Source of the DNA: Candidatus Poribacteria bacterium | GTDB lineage: Bacteria > Poribacteria > WGA-4E > WGA-3G | Direction: 5' to 3' | NCBI GenBank assembly: GCA_021295715.1 | Contig: JAGWBV010000022.1 | Location: 1 to 40,485, forward strand | Length of the DNA: 40,485 bases | In this document: piece by piece, positions 2,363 through 32,791 of the stretch | Numbering within the stretch: the first letter of the stretch is position 1 | Layout: each line of letters opens with the position of its first letter | The notes under the pieces: model-generated | Databases searched by the model: none | The model's input: the letters and a program-made list of their open reading frames with translations, nothing else | Told to the model about the DNA's origin: nothing | Program-made: the position numbers and the translations under genes

Positions 2363-3085
2363 ATGAACAGCCGTAACCTGTTCATCACTATTTGTATAAT
2401 TACGCTCGGCATTGCCGCGCTTGCGATGTCGCAGACCTATTTTGAGGATAATTTCGACGATCCGAAAGAATCCGAAAAGAAATGGGTCGCCCTTTTTGGG
2501 GAATGGGAACTCAAGGACGATGAATACCATCAACTCCAAAATACCCCTAACTGTATGAGTGTCGTCGCCGATGAATTCTGGGAGGACGACTGGAGTGATT
2601 ACACCTTTGAAGTGAGAGGGAGCAAAGTCAGTGGTGCCGAGGGGTTCCTGATTATGTTCCGTTGCCAAGGTTTGATGCAAGCACGCGGACAGGCTCTTGA
2701 GGATCATCCGCCACGTATGGAGAAGCTCAAACCCTCGTTGGAATACTGGTGGAATCTCGGCGGATGGGGAAACTCACGCTCACAAGTTGAATCTTGGGGC
2801 GGCAAAGCCGGTGCCAATAGTGCTCACACCATTAAAGATAAGGATTGGTATAACATCAAGATTGTCAATACCCCCGATAGTTACACGGTCATTCTCAACG
2901 ATGAAGAAGTCGCAACCGTTGACGATGACACTGAGGGTGGTGTTGGGAGAATAGGCTTAGCCACATGGAGCACGGTTGCTAAGTATGATGATGTCGTCGT
3001 TTACGGACCTGATGGTCCCTCGTTACCGGTCGACGCAAAAAGCAAACTCGCGACGACTTGGGGACATCTTAAATCCGTGAAGTAG
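2363..3085 (+). CDS. Secreted LamG/concanavalin-like domain protein
   Basis: A 240-residue protein with a clear Sec signal peptide (NLFITICIITLGIAALAMSQ, cleavage probably after AMS). The mature part has the pattern of single-domain beta-sandwich proteins related to the DUF1080/LamG group: DNFDD near the start, WVALFGEWELKDDEYHQ, a middle strand region GAEGFLIMFRCQG, and a closing IKIVNTPDSYTVILNDEEVATVDDDTEGGVGRIGLATW. Such domains bind or act on extracellular polysaccharides, but no catalytic residues are visible, so the function is open. AAAAGGAG at 2346-2353 supplies the RBS. It appears monocistronic and is followed by a MITE-like repeat. Confidence 0.7.
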   Translation: MNSRNLFITICIITLGIAALAMSQTYFEDNFDDPKESEKKWVALFGEWELKDDEYHQLQNTPNCMSVVADEFWEDDWSDYTFEVRGSKVSGAEGFLIMFRCQGLMQARGQALEDHPPRMEKLKPSLEYWWNLGGWGNSRSQVESWGGKAGANSAHTIKDKDWYNIKIVNTPDSYTVILNDEEVATVDDDTEGGVGRIGLATWSTVAKYDDVVVYGPDGPSLPVDAKSKLATTWGHLKSVK

Positions 3086-3100
3086 TTTTCAAACACTATT

Positions 3101-3258
3101 ATAACCCAAGTTGCTGCGAATGAGTTTTGAACGTTTTAAGATGATTCTCGGGTGCTTTTTCACCCCGTAGGGGTGCTATGTCTATAGAAAATGGCTTATG
3201 TAAGCAACCGCACCCCGTAGGGGTGCTATGTCTATGAATAGGTGGCAACTTGGGTTAT
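3101..3258. repeat. MITE-like element with internal direct repeats
   Basis: Terminal inverted repeats ATAACCCAAGTTGC (3101-3114) and GCAACTTGGGTTAT (3245-3258) match perfectly over 14 bases and enclose 158 bp without a gene. Inside are two identical 25-base units at 3161-3185 and 3211-3235, 50 bases apart. Each carries the palindrome CACCCCGTAGGGGTG followed by CTATGTCTAT. This is a compact non-autonomous mobile repeat by structure. No transposase for it is in the window. Confidence 0.7.
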
Positions 3259-3270
3259 TATATATTAAAG

Positions 3271-3360: not shown

Positions 3361-5301
3361 ATGCCAAGGCACTCCCAAACCGAATCCCCCATTCCTACCT
3401 ACCATACAGTTACCTCAACACCACATGGACGGATAGGTGAACTCAGGTTGAGTACTAACAATAGAACACTTGAAACGCCAGTGCTATATCCTGTGATTAA
3501 CTTTCTGACGGGTACGAGCACACGTGGCGGTGGTGTCTGGAAATATATTCTAAAGATTCTGATGCAGCGACAGACACCTATGCTGTCTCAGATCTTACAT
3601 TTTCTCGATTTCCCACTCACCGGACGATACCTTGACAATTGGCGTGGGAAGTCAATGCGCAAGCATTACCGTGAACAGAATGGTGTATATGAAGGCACCT
3701 TTTTCTTAGATTCCGGTGGCTTCAAACTCCTTTACAACACCGGTATGGATCTGAAAGAATTTGGAATTCACAAGGAAACAGAGGCGGACGATATCCTCGA
3801 TCTCCAATTAGGCTTTGAAGGTGATATAGTCGCCTCTTTGGATTACCCGCTCCCGCCCAACTTAGCACGTCCAGAAGCTGAAGAGCGGATGAAACAGAGT
3901 CTCACAAACGCAGTCCGAGTGGCAGAACGCTTGACAACAAATACAAGCGAAATCCGGACGGTGCCTTATCTTTATACCTGCTGTCATGGTCAATCCGGGG
4001 AGGACATCTCGGACTATGTGAGTCAACTCTTTGCTCAAATGAGTGGTATATTATCCTCATTCGGGTTGGCTGTGGGATCACTTGTGCCTTTACGTGGTCG
4101 GGACGATTCGGAAGTGATGGAGCTGGTTAACGGTGTTGTCCAAGCCGTTCCAGAGGATCGACGGGAGACGACACCTATTCACGCTTTTGGTGTTTCAGGC
4201 GTGCTCACGCCACTCCTCGCTTACATAGGTGTTGACACGTTCGATAGTTCTGGCTATATTCACACGTCTCGGAGTCTCACATATTCACAACCGCACACCC
4301 AGAAGAAACTCAGGATTATGGAGATGGATGAAACAGACTGTGACTGTTACATCTGCGAGGCATATCCGCTGCAGGAAATTCAGCAGGCGTTCATGGATAA
4401 ACAGAGTTACAGAGCCACCTCCACAGGCAAGTTTAAGAGCGAGTACTACGCCGCGATTGGGCTTCACAACTTCCAGACGGAAGCCGATATTCTTGATGAA
4501 ATGCGTACTGCAATCGCGGCAGACGATGCCCTTGAAGGTTTAGTCCGGCACCTCGCTAAATACCAGAACTTCCGCGGCTTAAGACGGGCAACGGCATGGC
4601 TTTCCGATAATGATAAGACACTCGCTACCCGATTGGCTCGAACGTTAATTCAGACCCCCACGCGTATGAAAGCAAAGCACACGCAGCAGAACTTAAATCA
4701 ATTGGAACTCTTCTCAGGCAATCACGGAAACACTGAGAATAGAAGCCAAACTATCCATGGAGATCGTAACACTCAAACGGTTTCGCTGGCATATACCCCA
4801 GATGATTTTCGAGTACCCTGTGATTATAAGGTGCCCGATGGTAAAGAAATCCTACTTGTGATCCCCTGTGCTGGAAAGAAACCTTACTCACTGTCCCGGA
4901 CGCACACGATGATTGCAAACAGATTTCAAACCGCTTTCGGCGAAGGACAGGAGTGTATCCACAAAATAACGCTCTCTGGACTTTACGGTCCCGTTCCTGA
5001 AGAATTTGAAACAGAGGATGCTGTTGTCCGCTACGATTTTCAGCTCTCCCCTAAAAACAAATCCCAGATTGAACAAGGCGCGACACGTCTGGTCAACTAC
5101 TTGGAAAAATATGGACACAACTATGTGCTTGCAGTCGGATACGCGACGAGTCGGGCATACAGAAAGGTCCTTACACTTACAGAGGAGCGTTTTCCAACAT
5201 TCATTTTACTGCCGAAGGAACTCAGGCAGAAACGCTTATCTGAATTCTTCAGGCACACGAACTTAGATGCTTTGGTTGAAGTGATACGAGACAAATTATA
5301 G
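3361..5301 (+). CDS. tRNA-guanine-transglycosylase-like protein fused to an ArcS-type (DUF5591) domain
   Basis: A 646-residue protein in two parts. Residues about 20-415 resemble a TGT barrel of the archaeal type. They include FFLDSGGFKLL (D117), GLAVGSLVP, GVDTFDSSGY (probable nucleophile D295), and a zinc site CDCYIC (C327, C329, C332) with H369 in GLHN. Residues about 480-646 carry the archaeosine-synthase signature PC-x3-KPY-x2-S-x2-H exactly (PCAGKKPYSLSRTH, 502-515), followed by LSGLYGPVP and RYDFQLSP. TGTs exchange a guanine for a 7-deazaguanine; ArcS further modifies preQ0 in tRNA in Archaea. Fusion partners in Archaea usually have a decayed TGT half, but here the active-site and zinc residues remain. 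DNA is an alternative substrate (DpdA-like enzymes). No preQ0 or dpd genes are nearby. The RBS is weak (AAGAAAAG). The next gene starts 13 bases downstream. Confidence 0.8.
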   Translation: MPRHSQTESPIPTYHTVTSTPHGRIGELRLSTNNRTLETPVLYPVINFLTGTSTRGGGVWKYILKILMQRQTPMLSQILHFLDFPLTGRYLDNWRGKSMRKHYREQNGVYEGTFFLDSGGFKLLYNTGMDLKEFGIHKETEADDILDLQLGFEGDIVASLDYPLPPNLARPEAEERMKQSLTNAVRVAERLTTNTSEIRTVPYLYTCCHGQSGEDISDYVSQLFAQMSGILSSFGLAVGSLVPLRGRDDSEVMELVNGVVQAVPEDRRETTPIHAFGVSGVLTPLLAYIGVDTFDSSGYIHTSRSLTYSQPHTQKKLRIMEMDETDCDCYICEAYPLQEIQQAFMDKQSYRATSTGKFKSEYYAAIGLHNFQTEADILDEMRTAIAADDALEGLVRHLAKYQNFRGLRRATAWLSDNDKTLATRLARTLIQTPTRMKAKHTQQNLNQLELFSGNHGNTENRSQTIHGDRNTQTVSLAYTPDDFRVPCDYKVPDGKEILLVIPCAGKKPYSLSRTHTMIANRFQTAFGEGQECIHKITLSGLYGPVPEEFETEDAVVRYDFQLSPKNKSQIEQGATRLVNYLEKYGHNYVLAVGYATSRAYRKVLTLTEERFPTFILLPKELRQKRLSEFFRHTNLDALVEVIRDKL

Positions 5302-5314
5302 GAACTGACAACAG

Positions 5315-6502
5315 ATGCAAAATTATTTTTTACCCTCGCGAATTGAATTTGGCGATGGGACCATTCAAAACTTAGGCGAACACGTCAAGGCATTTGATGG
5401 CAAAAAACCATTCTTAGTAAGCGATGCTGGCGTTATCAACGCTGGCATTCTTGCGAAAGCAGTAGAGGCGTTGGACACAGTCGGTTTATCGCATGTCACA
5501 TATTCAGATATTGAACCGAACCCGACGGACATCAGCGTTACACACGGTGTAGAAGCCTACAAAGCCGAGGCGTGTGATGTCGTCATCGCTGTCGGCGGCG
5601 GAAGCGTGATGGATGCCGCCAAAGCCATCCGTCTCTTAACGACCCATGAACCACCCGCTGGCGAGGTTTCCAACCTCGCTCCATATTACGCTGACGTTGG
5701 TGGCATCGATCGAATCCGAGGCGATATGCCGCCGCTAATATGTGTGCCGACGACTGCTGGCACGGGCAGTGAGGTGTCACAAGGCTCAATCATTACGGAT
5801 ACATCCCTACAGACAACCGATCGATGGCGCAAGCGCGCAATCGTTACACCCTTCAACATGTCGAACATCGCACTCCTCGATCCGGGAATAACCCTTGGCA
5901 TGCCACCTGCCCTTACTGCTGCGACAGGTATGGATGCCATCACACACGGCATCGAGGCGTATGTGGCGACGAAGTACCACCCTATTGCTGAGGGGGTCGC
6001 ACTACAGGCACTCAGAATGTTGAGCGCAAATATTCAACAGGTCTATTACAATGGTGAAGATGTAACCGCACGCGGGGAAATGCTTTTGGGGTCATGCATG
6101 GCAGCATTTTCATTTCAGAAGGGGCTTGGCGCGGTCCATTCGCTGGCGCACCAACTCTCTACAGATGCCCCCATACCCCATGGCGTAGCAAACGCGATTC
6201 TCCTCCCACCTGTCATGGAATTCAACTTTTCTCATGCGAACGAGAAATACGCTGAAATCGCGCGTGCCTTAGGTATAGACACCAGTAAAATGGACATTGA
6301 GGAAGCGGGGCATGCTGCCATTGATAAAATCAGGGCATACAACACAGAATTGAATATGCCCACTGGACTCGGAGAAGCTGGTTTGGACCGGGGAAAAATT
6401 CCGAAACTCGGCGCGGACGCAATGCTTGATCATTGCCATAAATTCAATCCGAGGGTGTGCACAGAGGAGGATATGGTGGCTTTATTTGAGGCAGCGTTCT
6501 AA
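5315..6502 (+). CDS. Iron-containing alcohol dehydrogenase
   Basis: A 395-residue group III (Fe-dependent) alcohol dehydrogenase. The NAD(P)-binding part shows IAVGGGSVMDAAKA (92-104) and PTTAGTGSEVS (145-155). The metal ligands fit the family pattern: D207 and H211 in TGMDAITHGIEAY, H275 in GAVHSLAHQ and H289 in PIPHG. Family members interconvert alcohols and aldehydes or ketones; the substrate cannot be read from sequence. It begins 13 bases after the TGT-ArcS stop, so the two genes are probably cotranscribed, although a functional link is not obvious. Its 3' end overlaps the convergent propeller lipoprotein gene by 4 bases (TAA on + and TAG on - share bases). Confidence 0.92.
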   Translation: MQNYFLPSRIEFGDGTIQNLGEHVKAFDGKKPFLVSDAGVINAGILAKAVEALDTVGLSHVTYSDIEPNPTDISVTHGVEAYKAEACDVVIAVGGGSVMDAAKAIRLLTTHEPPAGEVSNLAPYYADVGGIDRIRGDMPPLICVPTTAGTGSEVSQGSIITDTSLQTTDRWRKRAIVTPFNMSNIALLDPGITLGMPPALTAATGMDAITHGIEAYVATKYHPIAEGVALQALRMLSANIQQVYYNGEDVTARGEMLLGSCMAAFSFQKGLGAVHSLAHQLSTDAPIPHGVANAILLPPVMEFNFSHANEKYAEIARALGIDTSKMDIEEAGHAAIDKIRAYNTELNMPTGLGEAGLDRGKIPKLGADAMLDHCHKFNPRVCTEEDMVALFEAAF

Positions 6503-29094: not shown

Positions 29095-30141
29095 ATGCCG
29101 AGACGTAAACCGTACACAAAGGTTGTTAAAACGAATCAAATTCGCGCAGAACATGTTCGCGGAATGGGAGATGTGGTTTTTAAAGGCTTCCAATGTTTGA
29201 ATAGCGAGTGCTTGGAATTTATTTTCATTCGCAAAGATGAAATTGGTGCTGACTTTGAAATTGCTTGTCCGAGTTGTGGAATGGTTATGCTATCAGGCGA
29301 TGAAACTCAATTCTATGCGTACAAATTGGAAGATCAGAGAGACAATTCTATTATTGAGGAAGGCACGTTTACTATTCTGCACGATGACTACATTGAGGAA
29401 GCACAGGAATATAAGTATTGCATCGTCTGTAATACAATTAAACCACTTGATTTATTTGACAAACATAGTGCCCGGAAATCGGGTCGTCAAGGTGAGTGCA
29501 GACTATGCAAAGCAGTTTACAATTCGATTAAAAATAAAACTCGTTTAACAGATCAACACCGCGAAGCCTCGCAAAAGCGACGGATGTATCTGAATCTCTC
29601 TGAAAGCACGAAAATTAAGAGGGAAGAAATCTATAAACGTTTTAACTATCGTTGTTTCAAATGCCAAAAGGATCTCCGAAGAGCTGATGATGCTAAAGAA
29701 CGTCCGCTTGATCATACACTTCCCGCCGTTTTTTTGTGGCCCCTGACCACCGAAAACGCAACATTGCTATGCCGAGAACATAACAGCGAAAAATCGGGGA
29801 AGTGGCCTTCATCCTATTACTCAGATGATGAGTTACGGGCTCTCGCTGTCCTGACAGGTATTCAGTACGACACACTCGCTGGTCAACCACATTATAATCC
29901 TGAAGCAATTGAACGCCTGAAGACATCTGAGCAGGTCGATCAACTCTTGACAAAATATGCCGTCTATATGGAAGAAATTATCAAGTTACGCAACCGAATT
30001 TTGGAGTACGAAAATTTCGATTTTTTTCAGCATTCGACAACCATCTCGTCTGCTTGGATCCGTCAAGCGAATCAGGAATATCAGCGAGTAATTCATCAAA
30101 AAACAGATGTTAATACAGAACAAGATACTGATGAGACGTAA
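29095..30141 (+). CDS. HNH endonuclease with zinc-finger modules, probable type II restriction enzyme
   Basis: A 348-residue protein. Zinc module 1 (about residues 33-65) has paired Cys in FQCLNSEC and CPSCG. Module 2 (about 118-145) has CIVCNTIKPLDLF and CRLCKAVYN, a pattern often attached to HNH nucleases. The HNH domain (about 182-240) shows YRCFKCQKDL, the catalytic DHTLP (Asp-His) and NATLLCREHNSEK. A C-terminal helical tail may bind DNA. The start follows GTGAGGGTAAA. It converges on a double-domain DNA methyltransferase and overlaps its 3' end by 32 bases; that pairing is the reason to call it a restriction enzyme rather than a homing nuclease. The recognition sequence is unknown. Confidence 0.75.
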   Translation: MPRRKPYTKVVKTNQIRAEHVRGMGDVVFKGFQCLNSECLEFIFIRKDEIGADFEIACPSCGMVMLSGDETQFYAYKLEDQRDNSIIEEGTFTILHDDYIEEAQEYKYCIVCNTIKPLDLFDKHSARKSGRQGECRLCKAVYNSIKNKTRLTDQHREASQKRRMYLNLSESTKIKREEIYKRFNYRCFKCQKDLRRADDAKERPLDHTLPAVFLWPLTTENATLLCREHNSEKSGKWPSSYYSDDELRALAVLTGIQYDTLAGQPHYNPEAIERLKTSEQVDQLLTKYAVYMEEIIKLRNRILEYENFDFFQHSTTISSAWIRQANQEYQRVIHQKTDVNTEQDTDET

Positions 30142-32791
30142 CGGTTCCTTTGTCCCGGATACCATGGGATTCACAGTGAGCAACGCTTTCATCGAAAAGA
30201 TCCACTGATCGAAACCACCATTTACCAAGTTTCTGTAAATGATCCGCCATATCACACTTAACACTTTTGCCCAGATGCAAAACAACTACACCATTAGATT
30301 TAAGTCGTTCTTTTGCTTGACGAAGAATTGGGATATATACATCAAAACTACTTTTTTGTTTTTCATCAATAAAAACTGATGGTCGTGTTTTGAAATCGCG
30401 AGCAGTCCAACCTGAAAACCATAACCGCAACCAATTTGCAGAGTAGAATCGGGTACTATCAAAGAAAGGTGGAGATGTGATAATTGCATCCAGTCGATCT
30501 ACCTCTCTAGGCCACCAACTTGTTGCATCTTGAAAAAATATCTTTCCCGGTTTAAAATTCATAGGCAAATCCCCAGCCAGACCTCGCTGAACTTTTGCAC
30601 ATAGTTGACTGATTAATGGACGATATTCATAAGGACCAGTGGGTTTGTAGGGGGTAAGCGGATGCGAACGACGACTCAAGGCGTATGGACGATTGCCGTG
30701 TAAAATATGGAGCAATGAAGCAAACACAAATTGCTCTTCAGGGGTTTCTGGCGGATGCATTTGAAAGTACCGTCGCGCCAAAAGAACTTCTCTCAACGTG
30801 TAGGACTCATAATATTCGGCTATTTTCCCGTTGAACCCCAGATGATTCGCTTCGGTGATCTCAGTGCCTGTAACTGAGTGGCGGTTGATAAAAGCCTCTA
30901 CTGCTTCAATGACTGTTGTGCATCCGTGTTCCATGGGTTGTTGAACTTTCGCACTCGCGATGGTAAAGGCAGCGGGGCTTATTTCAAAACCGTAGGCTTG
31001 TTTGCCGGATAGTGTTGCCTCAAAAGGGATTGTGCCAACACCCGCGAATGGATCTAAAACTCGTCCATCTTCTGGAACAAATGTTTGTACCAAATGATAT
31101 GCGATGGCAGGTTTTAACTTGCCTGGATAGGAACATAATGAGTGTCGGACATGTCCCCAGTTTCTTTTTATAAAGGGGGTTTTCTGATGAGGTAGATTTT
31201 GTTTGAATATATCCCATTCAGCACGCCACCCCACGGTTTGTCTTTTGGAAGTTTTTCCTTCCTGCTTGGAGGCGTGCTTGAAAACAAGCAGTGATTGTTT
31301 GAGTAACATTCCACGTCTGGATTTACGTTTTCTAAGTGTTACAGAATCTGTTGGAACAAGACCGAGTTCTTGCAGGCATACTGACAATAATTCGTCTACC
31401 GGAACATGAATACCCGCGTAACAGGAATCTCCGATATCAATTGCGACTGTTGCATCAGGAGTTAAGTGACGACAAATGCCTCGGAATATCCCCGTTATCT
31501 CGCTAAAATAACTGGCAATCATGCGAGGAATGCGGGAGTCGTAAGCATTTTGTTCGAGTTGAGAGACAGTTTTTTGAACATCCGGGTGCAATTGGGTAGG
31601 GGTTTTAGAGACGGTTACGTCATTGATGCCTGCAGTCAAGGATACCGCACGAAATCTTGTTAAGTCTTCCTTTTCTTTTAAGCAACGCAAAAACCATAAT
31701 TCTATCTTTGTGTTGCGAAAATAGTTTGTTCCGTTGACATAAGGCGGGCTTGTTATTACGGTATCAATGCCAAGAGACGATATAGTATCTAACGAGCGAG
31801 CGTTTTCACATACAAGTAGTGGTTCAGTTTTCAGACCGTCAACATCGTTTTGAATATCTTGAACCATCTGATTGATGTTTTGGCACAACCCTTCAATGAG
31901 TGGCATTGTTTGCCGCTCAAGTTCTCTCGCCGTTTTGTATCTCAAATCACCTGATCGCTTCATCCGAGATGCGGGAACAAGTGCTGATAGGGTTGCAACT
32001 GTGATCAGATCGGCTAAGATTGGATTTTCAAGAGCAACTTCATCAATCCATGAGCGAATCCGTAAAACTTGATCATAAACCGGACCATCAAAAAATAAAC
32101 TATCACCAAAGGTTTGTATGTAGGCTTGGTGTAAGGTATAATTTTGCGAATATTTTTCAAGTTCTTTGAGTGGAACTTTGGCTTGGGCAAGTGCTTCAGC
32201 CAATGCGAAACGTTGAGATAATTTTAACTGCCTGACTCGTATTTTTGTTAAACTCATAAACTGCAAAACTGGATTTATTTCACAGAAATAGGCAGTTTTG
32301 TTGAGTTGTGATGCAGTAAAGGCGGTTGTTCCTGTTCCCGCAAATGGATCAAGGATGGTCTGGGCATCTGGGGCATATCTTTCCAGTATAGTTTCCACAA
32401 ATTGAGTTGAGTATCCCTCTAAGTACGGATACCATCGGGCAAAGGGCTCTTTTCGTCCTTGCTTAAAAGTCACAGTCACTGGATCAAATAGTTCCGTTTT
32501 TGTCTCGATCCCTGGCAGTTGAAGTTGGACAGCGGGTTCCCGAATGAGATTTATGGAATGCTCCAACTGACGAAGACAATAGGCATTTAAGGGTAAATTG
32601 TCGGCTTTAGCGTTCGCTACAAGAGTTTGATAGTCGTCTCCTAATAATTGGCGCAGTTCAGCACTGGAAAGCCCTTTAATACATTCATAAATTTCATCTG
32701 TTTCCTTACCAAAGGCTAAGGTTAGCGATTTTTTCTTAGGTGTTTCCGCCGGATACTCAGGAAAGTAAACGGCTTTGTATTTTTGAGCCAT
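30110..32791 (-). CDS. Double-domain DNA methyltransferase (two N4-cytosine/N6-adenine modules)
   Basis: An 893-residue protein holding two complete amino-methyltransferase modules. Module 1 has the SAM motif DPFAGTGT (148-155) and catalytic TSPPY (347-351). Module 2 has DPFAGVG (580-586) and TSPPF (772-776), with HGNRPYALSRRSHP just before. Both modules have the order motif I, long insert, motif IV. A fused pair is what one expects when an asymmetric site needs a different methyltransferase for each strand (type IIS-like). The minus-strand start ATG 32791 has GGAGGA eight bases upstream. It is convergent with the HNH nuclease. Expression runs from a promoter with an operator-like palindrome at 32842-32860. 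An alternative is an orphan methyltransferase. Confidence 0.88.
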   Translation of the reverse strand: MAQKYKAVYFPEYPAETPKKKSLTLAFGKETDEIYECIKGLSSAELRQLLGDDYQTLVANAKADNLPLNAYCLRQLEHSINLIREPAVQLQLPGIETKTELFDPVTVTFKQGRKEPFARWYPYLEGYSTQFVETILERYAPDAQTILDPFAGTGTTAFTASQLNKTAYFCEINPVLQFMSLTKIRVRQLKLSQRFALAEALAQAKVPLKELEKYSQNYTLHQAYIQTFGDSLFFDGPVYDQVLRIRSWIDEVALENPILADLITVATLSALVPASRMKRSGDLRYKTARELERQTMPLIEGLCQNINQMVQDIQNDVDGLKTEPLLVCENARSLDTISSLGIDTVITSPPYVNGTNYFRNTKIELWFLRCLKEKEDLTRFRAVSLTAGINDVTVSKTPTQLHPDVQKTVSQLEQNAYDSRIPRMIASYFSEITGIFRGICRHLTPDATVAIDIGDSCYAGIHVPVDELLSVCLQELGLVPTDSVTLRKRKSRRGMLLKQSLLVFKHASKQEGKTSKRQTVGWRAEWDIFKQNLPHQKTPFIKRNWGHVRHSLCSYPGKLKPAIAYHLVQTFVPEDGRVLDPFAGVGTIPFEATLSGKQAYGFEISPAAFTIASAKVQQPMEHGCTTVIEAVEAFINRHSVTGTEITEANHLGFNGKIAEYYESYTLREVLLARRYFQMHPPETPEEQFVFASLLHILHGNRPYALSRRSHPLTPYKPTGPYEYRPLISQLCAKVQRGLAGDLPMNFKPGKIFFQDATSWWPREVDRLDAIITSPPFFDSTRFYSANWLRLWFSGWTARDFKTRPSVFIDEKQKSSFDVYIPILRQAKERLKSNGVVVLHLGKSVKCDMADHLQKLGKWWFRSVDLFDESVAHCESHGIRDKGTVTSHQYLVLY

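Follow-up and report, generated by a model that had tools for sequence, protein, structure and literature searches.

A candidate bifunctional 7-deazaguanine enzyme: a TGT-DUF5591 fusion of Poribacteria with relatives in Dpd-like clusters of haloarchaeal plasmids

The window, the whole 40,485-nucleotide stretch of DNA analysed here, comes from a sponge-associated bacterium, a Poribacterium. At 3361..5301 on the forward strand it carries a gene with an ATG start that encodes a protein of 646 aa. Pfam searches on this open reading frame identified a TGT (transglycosylase) domain at residues 23-399 (3427..4557, forward strand; PF01702, 2.5e-19) and a DUF5591 domain, the ArcS core, at residues 486-606 (4816..5178, forward strand; PF17884, 4.4e-13). 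A PUA domain was not found in the Pfam scan of the protein. As the TGT domain scored 70 bits against a Pfam cut-off of 26.3 and the DUF5591 domain 49.8 bits against a cut-off of 26, neither represents a chance match, and the TGT-ArcS-type fusion that a preliminary description had read at this position is confirmed. The gene is flanked by a 3-keto-disaccharide hydrolase-like gene (2363..3085, forward strand) on one side and by an Fe-dependent alcohol dehydrogenase gene (5315..6502, forward strand) on the other. A repeated CACCCCGTAGGGGTGCTATGTCTAT element was observed just upstream of the fusion gene (3150-3270). Elsewhere in the window, a relative of REP-associated tyrosine transposases, scoring below the cut-off, is encoded at 115-897, and an HNH-type nuclease lies beside a large N6/N4 DNA methylase at 29095-32791, likely forming a restriction-modification pair.

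The residues of the TGT half were mapped by alignment with the ArcTGT of Pyrococcus horikoshii (PhArcTGT, 1iq8), and their invariance was assessed across 19 poribacterial and haloarchaeal fusions. Asp117 in LDSGG (3709..3711), Asp161 in SLDYP (3841..3843) and Asp295 in FDSSG (4243..4245), all on the forward strand, correspond to D95, D130 and D249 of PhArcTGT, and we take them to be the general acid/base, the base-binding residue and the nucleophile, respectively. The zinc ligands Cys327, Cys329 and Cys332 form a CxCxxC motif (4339..4356, forward strand; C279, C281 and C284 of 1iq8), and the fourth ligand, His369 (4465..4467, forward strand), lies in an LxxHN segment and aligns with the histidine of LAxHN in 1iq8. 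All seven residues are invariant in the 19 fusions. On the preQ0 side the fusion has a GSLVP loop that resembles the GGVVP of ArcTGT and, judging from TGT structures generally, this loop presumably favours preQ0. The catalytic Asp pair and the CxCxxC...H zinc site, together with the PF01702 score, place the protein in the TGT superfamily, and the general TGT model of NCBIfam scored 64 bits, above its superfamily cut-off of 47.6. The best score among NCBIfam models for this half was that of TgtA, at 82 bits. Since the TgtA equivalog cut-off is 350 bits and PUA was not found, the fusion was not filed as an archaeal TgtA. It was not filed as DpdA either, as the protein gave no match to NF041059 (NCBIfam, cut-off 200 bits). 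A whole-genome scan of its own genome likewise gave no NF041059 match, and the fusion of genome G021 gave a trace match of 20.5 bits against the cut-off of 200 in such a scan. The full-length structure model was poor (pLDDT 52) and, at this low confidence, aligned with TGT structures at Z 21-22.

The DUF5591 half contains the complete ArcS signature, PC-x3-KPY-x2-S-x2-H, at residues 502-515 (4864..4905, forward strand). It includes a CxxxK motif, and P502, C503, K507, P508, Y509, S512 and H515 are invariant in the 19 fusions. An LSGLYG motif follows at residues 538-543 (4972..4989, forward strand) and, by sequence comparison, resembles the LSAxxG of DUF6884. Its SGxYG part (539-543) is invariant across the same poribacterial and haloarchaeal set, whose members carry CxxxK and (L/V)SG(L/M)YG. 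This signature, LDSGG, FDSSG and CxCxxC...H all lie where the preliminary description had put them. When residues 474-646 were modelled (pLDDT 70), the best structure match was the archaeal protein AF0587 (2q07; 24% identity over 130 residues), at a Z of 9.9 where unrelated structures reach 9.1; the full protein also matches the AF0587 chain by sequence, in agreement with the structure match. YaaA was absent among the structure matches shown for this model, which decides nothing. ArcS was the top NCBIfam model for the C-terminal half, and its 69 bits against the NF040592 equivalog cut-off of 440 meant that the fusion was not filed as ArcS. Thus, the proposed profile check upheld the TGT and DUF5591 domains and not the TgtA, ArcS or DpdA assignments, and the structure check gave matches for both halves and no reliable full-length model.

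According to the Pfam curators, the conserved motifs of DUF6884 are CxxxK and LSAxxG, and the family is a distant relative of the DNA-binding protein YaaA (PMC11701544). DpdC has been described as a DUF6884 protein tied to dADG formation (PMC11888242) and as a DUF328 protein that hydrolyses dPreQ0 to dADG (PMC12839542). The DUF5591 and DUF6884 profiles aligned collinearly in hhalign (probability 59%, score 35.8), with 199 column shuffles scoring at most 26.9 and the reversed profile 15.5. This suggests that DUF5591 is likely to be remotely homologous to DUF6884. Both halves of the fusion look functional, since the motif residues are invariant and dN/dS is low. It lies at about 0.05-0.08 in the TGT half and 0.07-0.14 in the DUF5591 half, and is about 0.1 for the whole gene. 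The earlier view that both halves are intact is therefore supported by purifying selection as well as by the motifs.

Relatives of the fusion were detected in 17 other poribacterial genomes, and its close relatives are all from Candidatus Poribacteria. DUF5591 occurs in 20 of the 85 genomes of the phylum and the fusion, patchily, in 18, including a copy truncated by a contig end (G017) and one split in two frames (G084; L054 9088-11036), which may be a pseudogene or an assembly error. Two more distant poribacterial genomes have DUF5591 in shorter proteins (L038 5862-6899, 345 aa; L050 8869-9732, 287 aa). Within its own genus the fusion is present in 6/38 genomes, always just upstream of the Fe-dependent alcohol dehydrogenase, a gene found in 37/38 of these genomes with or without the fusion. 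Thirty dehydrogenase loci were read in the genus; in 23 of them, all lacking the fusion, the hydrolase-like gene directly precedes the dehydrogenase. These two genes therefore mark the edges of an insertion site, and the fusion is an optional gene at a fixed position. A functional link with the dehydrogenase was considered unlikely given the near-universal presence of the latter in the genus, and a link with the Mrr nuclease encoded at 1358-2212 was rejected because the same Mrr gene is found here in genomes without the fusion.

No dpd island was found around the fusion in the poribacterial loci examined, and at most of them restriction genes do not surround it. In G016 the fusion is immediately preceded, on the same strand, by genes for a DNA methylase and a MutH-like nuclease. 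An orthologous methylase (73% identity) is found upstream in G023, and a type I HsdR is encoded near the fusion in G021. We treat these neighbours as no more than suggestive.

A tblastn search on plasmids revealed full-length relatives in two records, from Haladaptatus sp. YSMS36 and Natrinema sp. SYSU A 869, with the same two domains and 32-33% identity over 97% of the query. Hence the fusion, previously described as bacterial, does occur in Poribacteria and is not solely bacterial. The Haladaptatus plasmid carries two copies. Nearby lie a DpdJ-like helicase (2.4e-47) and a large helicase of the AAA type, together with DUF6884, a DpdK-like PLD protein (9.3e-12), a further TGT that is single-domain, and a HATPase with a relationship to restriction enzymes. 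The Natrinema neighbours are a DpdJ-like helicase (4.1e-25), further helicases and ATPases, and a protein weakly matching a DNA phosphorothioation restriction enzyme. Because these relatives sit among DNA-defence genes, the fusion probably marks DNA rather than making archaeosine in tRNA, and we regard this Dpd-like setting, seen in two haloarchaeal islands, as the strongest indication of a DNA target. No relative of the fusion emerged from two protein-guided scans of viral contigs, and the TGT matches obtained in phage records were all weak. A locus retrieved by DNA-pattern match (L105) was a phage structural region containing no relative of the fusion.

The genome that carries the fusion also encodes a separate canonical Tgt (5.7e-164), QueC (9.1e-75) and a QueD-type protein (1.6e-29). 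The genome search for preQ0 genes suggested in the preliminary description was thus positive for QueC and QueD, and supply of preQ0 by the host is plausible. Neither DpdB nor DUF6884 was detected in this genome, and a profile scan of it detected no RaSEA (TIGR01210). RaSEA was above the cut-off in none of the 18 fusion genomes, with only ~22 bits against 212 in G005 and G015. Across the phylum a single genome exceeded the cut-off, and it lacks the fusion. The ArcS of T. kodakarensis did not transfer lysine by itself and required the ArcS-RaSEA complex (PMC11298593). An archaeosine product, raised in the preliminary description, is therefore not supported.

DpdA itself was above the curated cut-off in 10 of the 85 poribacterial genomes, none of them the genome of the window, and four DpdA loci were read. 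DUF6884 and DpdA are joined in one chain in L071 (9094-10863) and L073 (9263-11026), with a clear DUF6884 match, and in L072 (9021-10946), with a weak one; in L070 (9593-11329) they are adjacent and separate. A HerA helicase is among the neighbours in L070 and L071, and L073 has a HerA-related protein. Since these DUF6884-DpdA fusions parallel the TGT-DUF5591 fusion, the fusion of an inserter with a domain presumed to process the nitrile appears to have arisen on more than one occasion. Mutual exclusion between the fusion and true DpdA was considered and was not significant (1 shared genome among 85, Fisher p 0.44). In a TGT tree the poribacterial DpdA proteins lie apart from the fusions, and we claim no origin for the fusion because the deeper branches are long and weakly supported.

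Taking these results together, we lean, with modest confidence, towards a bifunctional 7-deazaguanine enzyme that first installs preQ0 in a polynucleotide, with DNA the most likely substrate, and afterwards modifies its nitrile group in situ. In the first step the TGT domain would remove a guanine and put in its place preQ0 from the host queuosine pathway. In the second, DUF5591 would use its CxxxK/LSGxYG site to process the nitrile of the newly installed base. It could add water to give 7-amido-7-deazaguanine, the reaction of DpdC in Dpd systems, or add an amine, for example lysine, the first step of ArcS. The DNA substrate, preQ0 as the inserted base, the order of the steps and the product are all inferred. 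We count in favour of DNA the intact, selected domains, the separate Tgt with QueC/QueD, the failure to find RaSEA and PUA, the DUF5591-DUF6884 alignment, the parallel DUF6884-DpdA fusions and the genes upstream in G016. Against it we count that Poribacteria have no dpd island around the fusion, that DpdB and DUF6884 were not detected in the genome of the window, that TgtA scores best and DpdA does not match, that only two haloarchaeal islands were seen, that the DUF5591-DUF6884 homology is weak, and that the full-length model is poor. Insertion and modification in tRNA or DNA, as first proposed, can thus be narrowed towards DNA by the haloarchaeal setting, and not by the DpdA profile. Since the poribacterial fusion is a stand-alone optional gene, any restriction partner in these bacteria would be encoded elsewhere or be absent.

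The main alternative, which we consider rather unlikely, is that the fusion acts on tRNA, where inserted preQ0 would be made into an adduct; this would be a branch of the archaeosine pathway that is bacterial and dispenses with RaSEA. TgtA and ArcS are indeed the top NCBIfam models for the two halves, the domains are arranged as in ArcS, and restriction genes do not surround most poribacterial loci. The fusion is, however, missing from most genomes of its own genus, its patchy presence is more in keeping with an optional modification than with a core modification of tRNA, and its haloarchaeal relatives sit in Dpd-like clusters; the RaSEA and PUA results also argue against tRNA. An uncoupled protein, in which the TGT half places preQ0 into DNA and DUF5591 merely binds DNA, leaving plain dPreQ0, is quite improbable. 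It would be consistent with the poorly conserved linker between the halves and with DNA binding by YaaA, the distant DUF6884 relative (PMC11701544), but the invariant ArcS signature and SGxYG suggest chemistry beyond binding. If the gene were in decay, or a contaminant, and served no function today, this could account for the split G084 copy and for the absence of the fusion from most of the genus. The low dN/dS, a GC content equal to that of the window and the same site in several single-contig chromosomes make this reading highly improbable, and we disfavour it.

By curated profile, the fusion is neither an archaeosine synthase in the known sense nor a DpdA. With archaeal ArcS it shares the order of a TGT-like domain followed by DUF5591, the complete signature and the AF0587 match, but it retains the TGT catalytic and zinc residues, lacks a detectable PUA, scores far below the ArcS equivalog and comes from a genome without RaSEA. 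Archaeal TgtA/ArcTGT (1iq8) has the same active-site and zinc residues and a similar VP loop, whereas the fusion differs in the missing PUA, the additional DUF5591 and its distance from the equivalog cut-off. In common with DpdA and DpdC of Dpd islands it combines a TGT with a CxxxK/LS(A/G)xxG domain, and in haloarchaea its relatives are found beside DpdJ-, DpdK- and DUF6884-like genes; in contrast, its second domain is DUF5591 and not DUF6884. The DUF6884-DpdA proteins of L071 and L073, from the same phylum, also unite an inserter and a presumed nitrile-processing domain, but in the opposite order, with DUF6884 and true DpdA and in a HerA cluster. No description of a TGT-DUF5591 architecture was found in the literature searched, whose coverage was partial, so that priority is uncertain. 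The fusion links tRNA archaeosine, Dpd DNA marking and the YaaA/DUF6884 proteins in one protein, and as a compact enzyme it makes both 7-deazaguanine steps testable together. It raises the possibility that the active sites of ArcS and DpdC are related, and that the ancestor of archaeal ArcS was an enzyme whose TGT half was active. That one chain replaces a DNA guanine with preQ0 and adds an amine such as lysine, yielding an unseen hypermodified base, and represents the ancestor of ArcS through decay of the TGT half, is an unlikely proposal.

In three fusion-carrying genomes we also observed a conserved run of large genes (L115 7902-15918, L116 3941-11884 and L117 4206-12083). The first gene of each run encodes a GNAT protein (about 480-500 aa) with a weak DpdA match, and the other genes have no clear Pfam match. 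The runs resemble the GNAT/TGT subset of BREX-related capture systems (PMC12839542).
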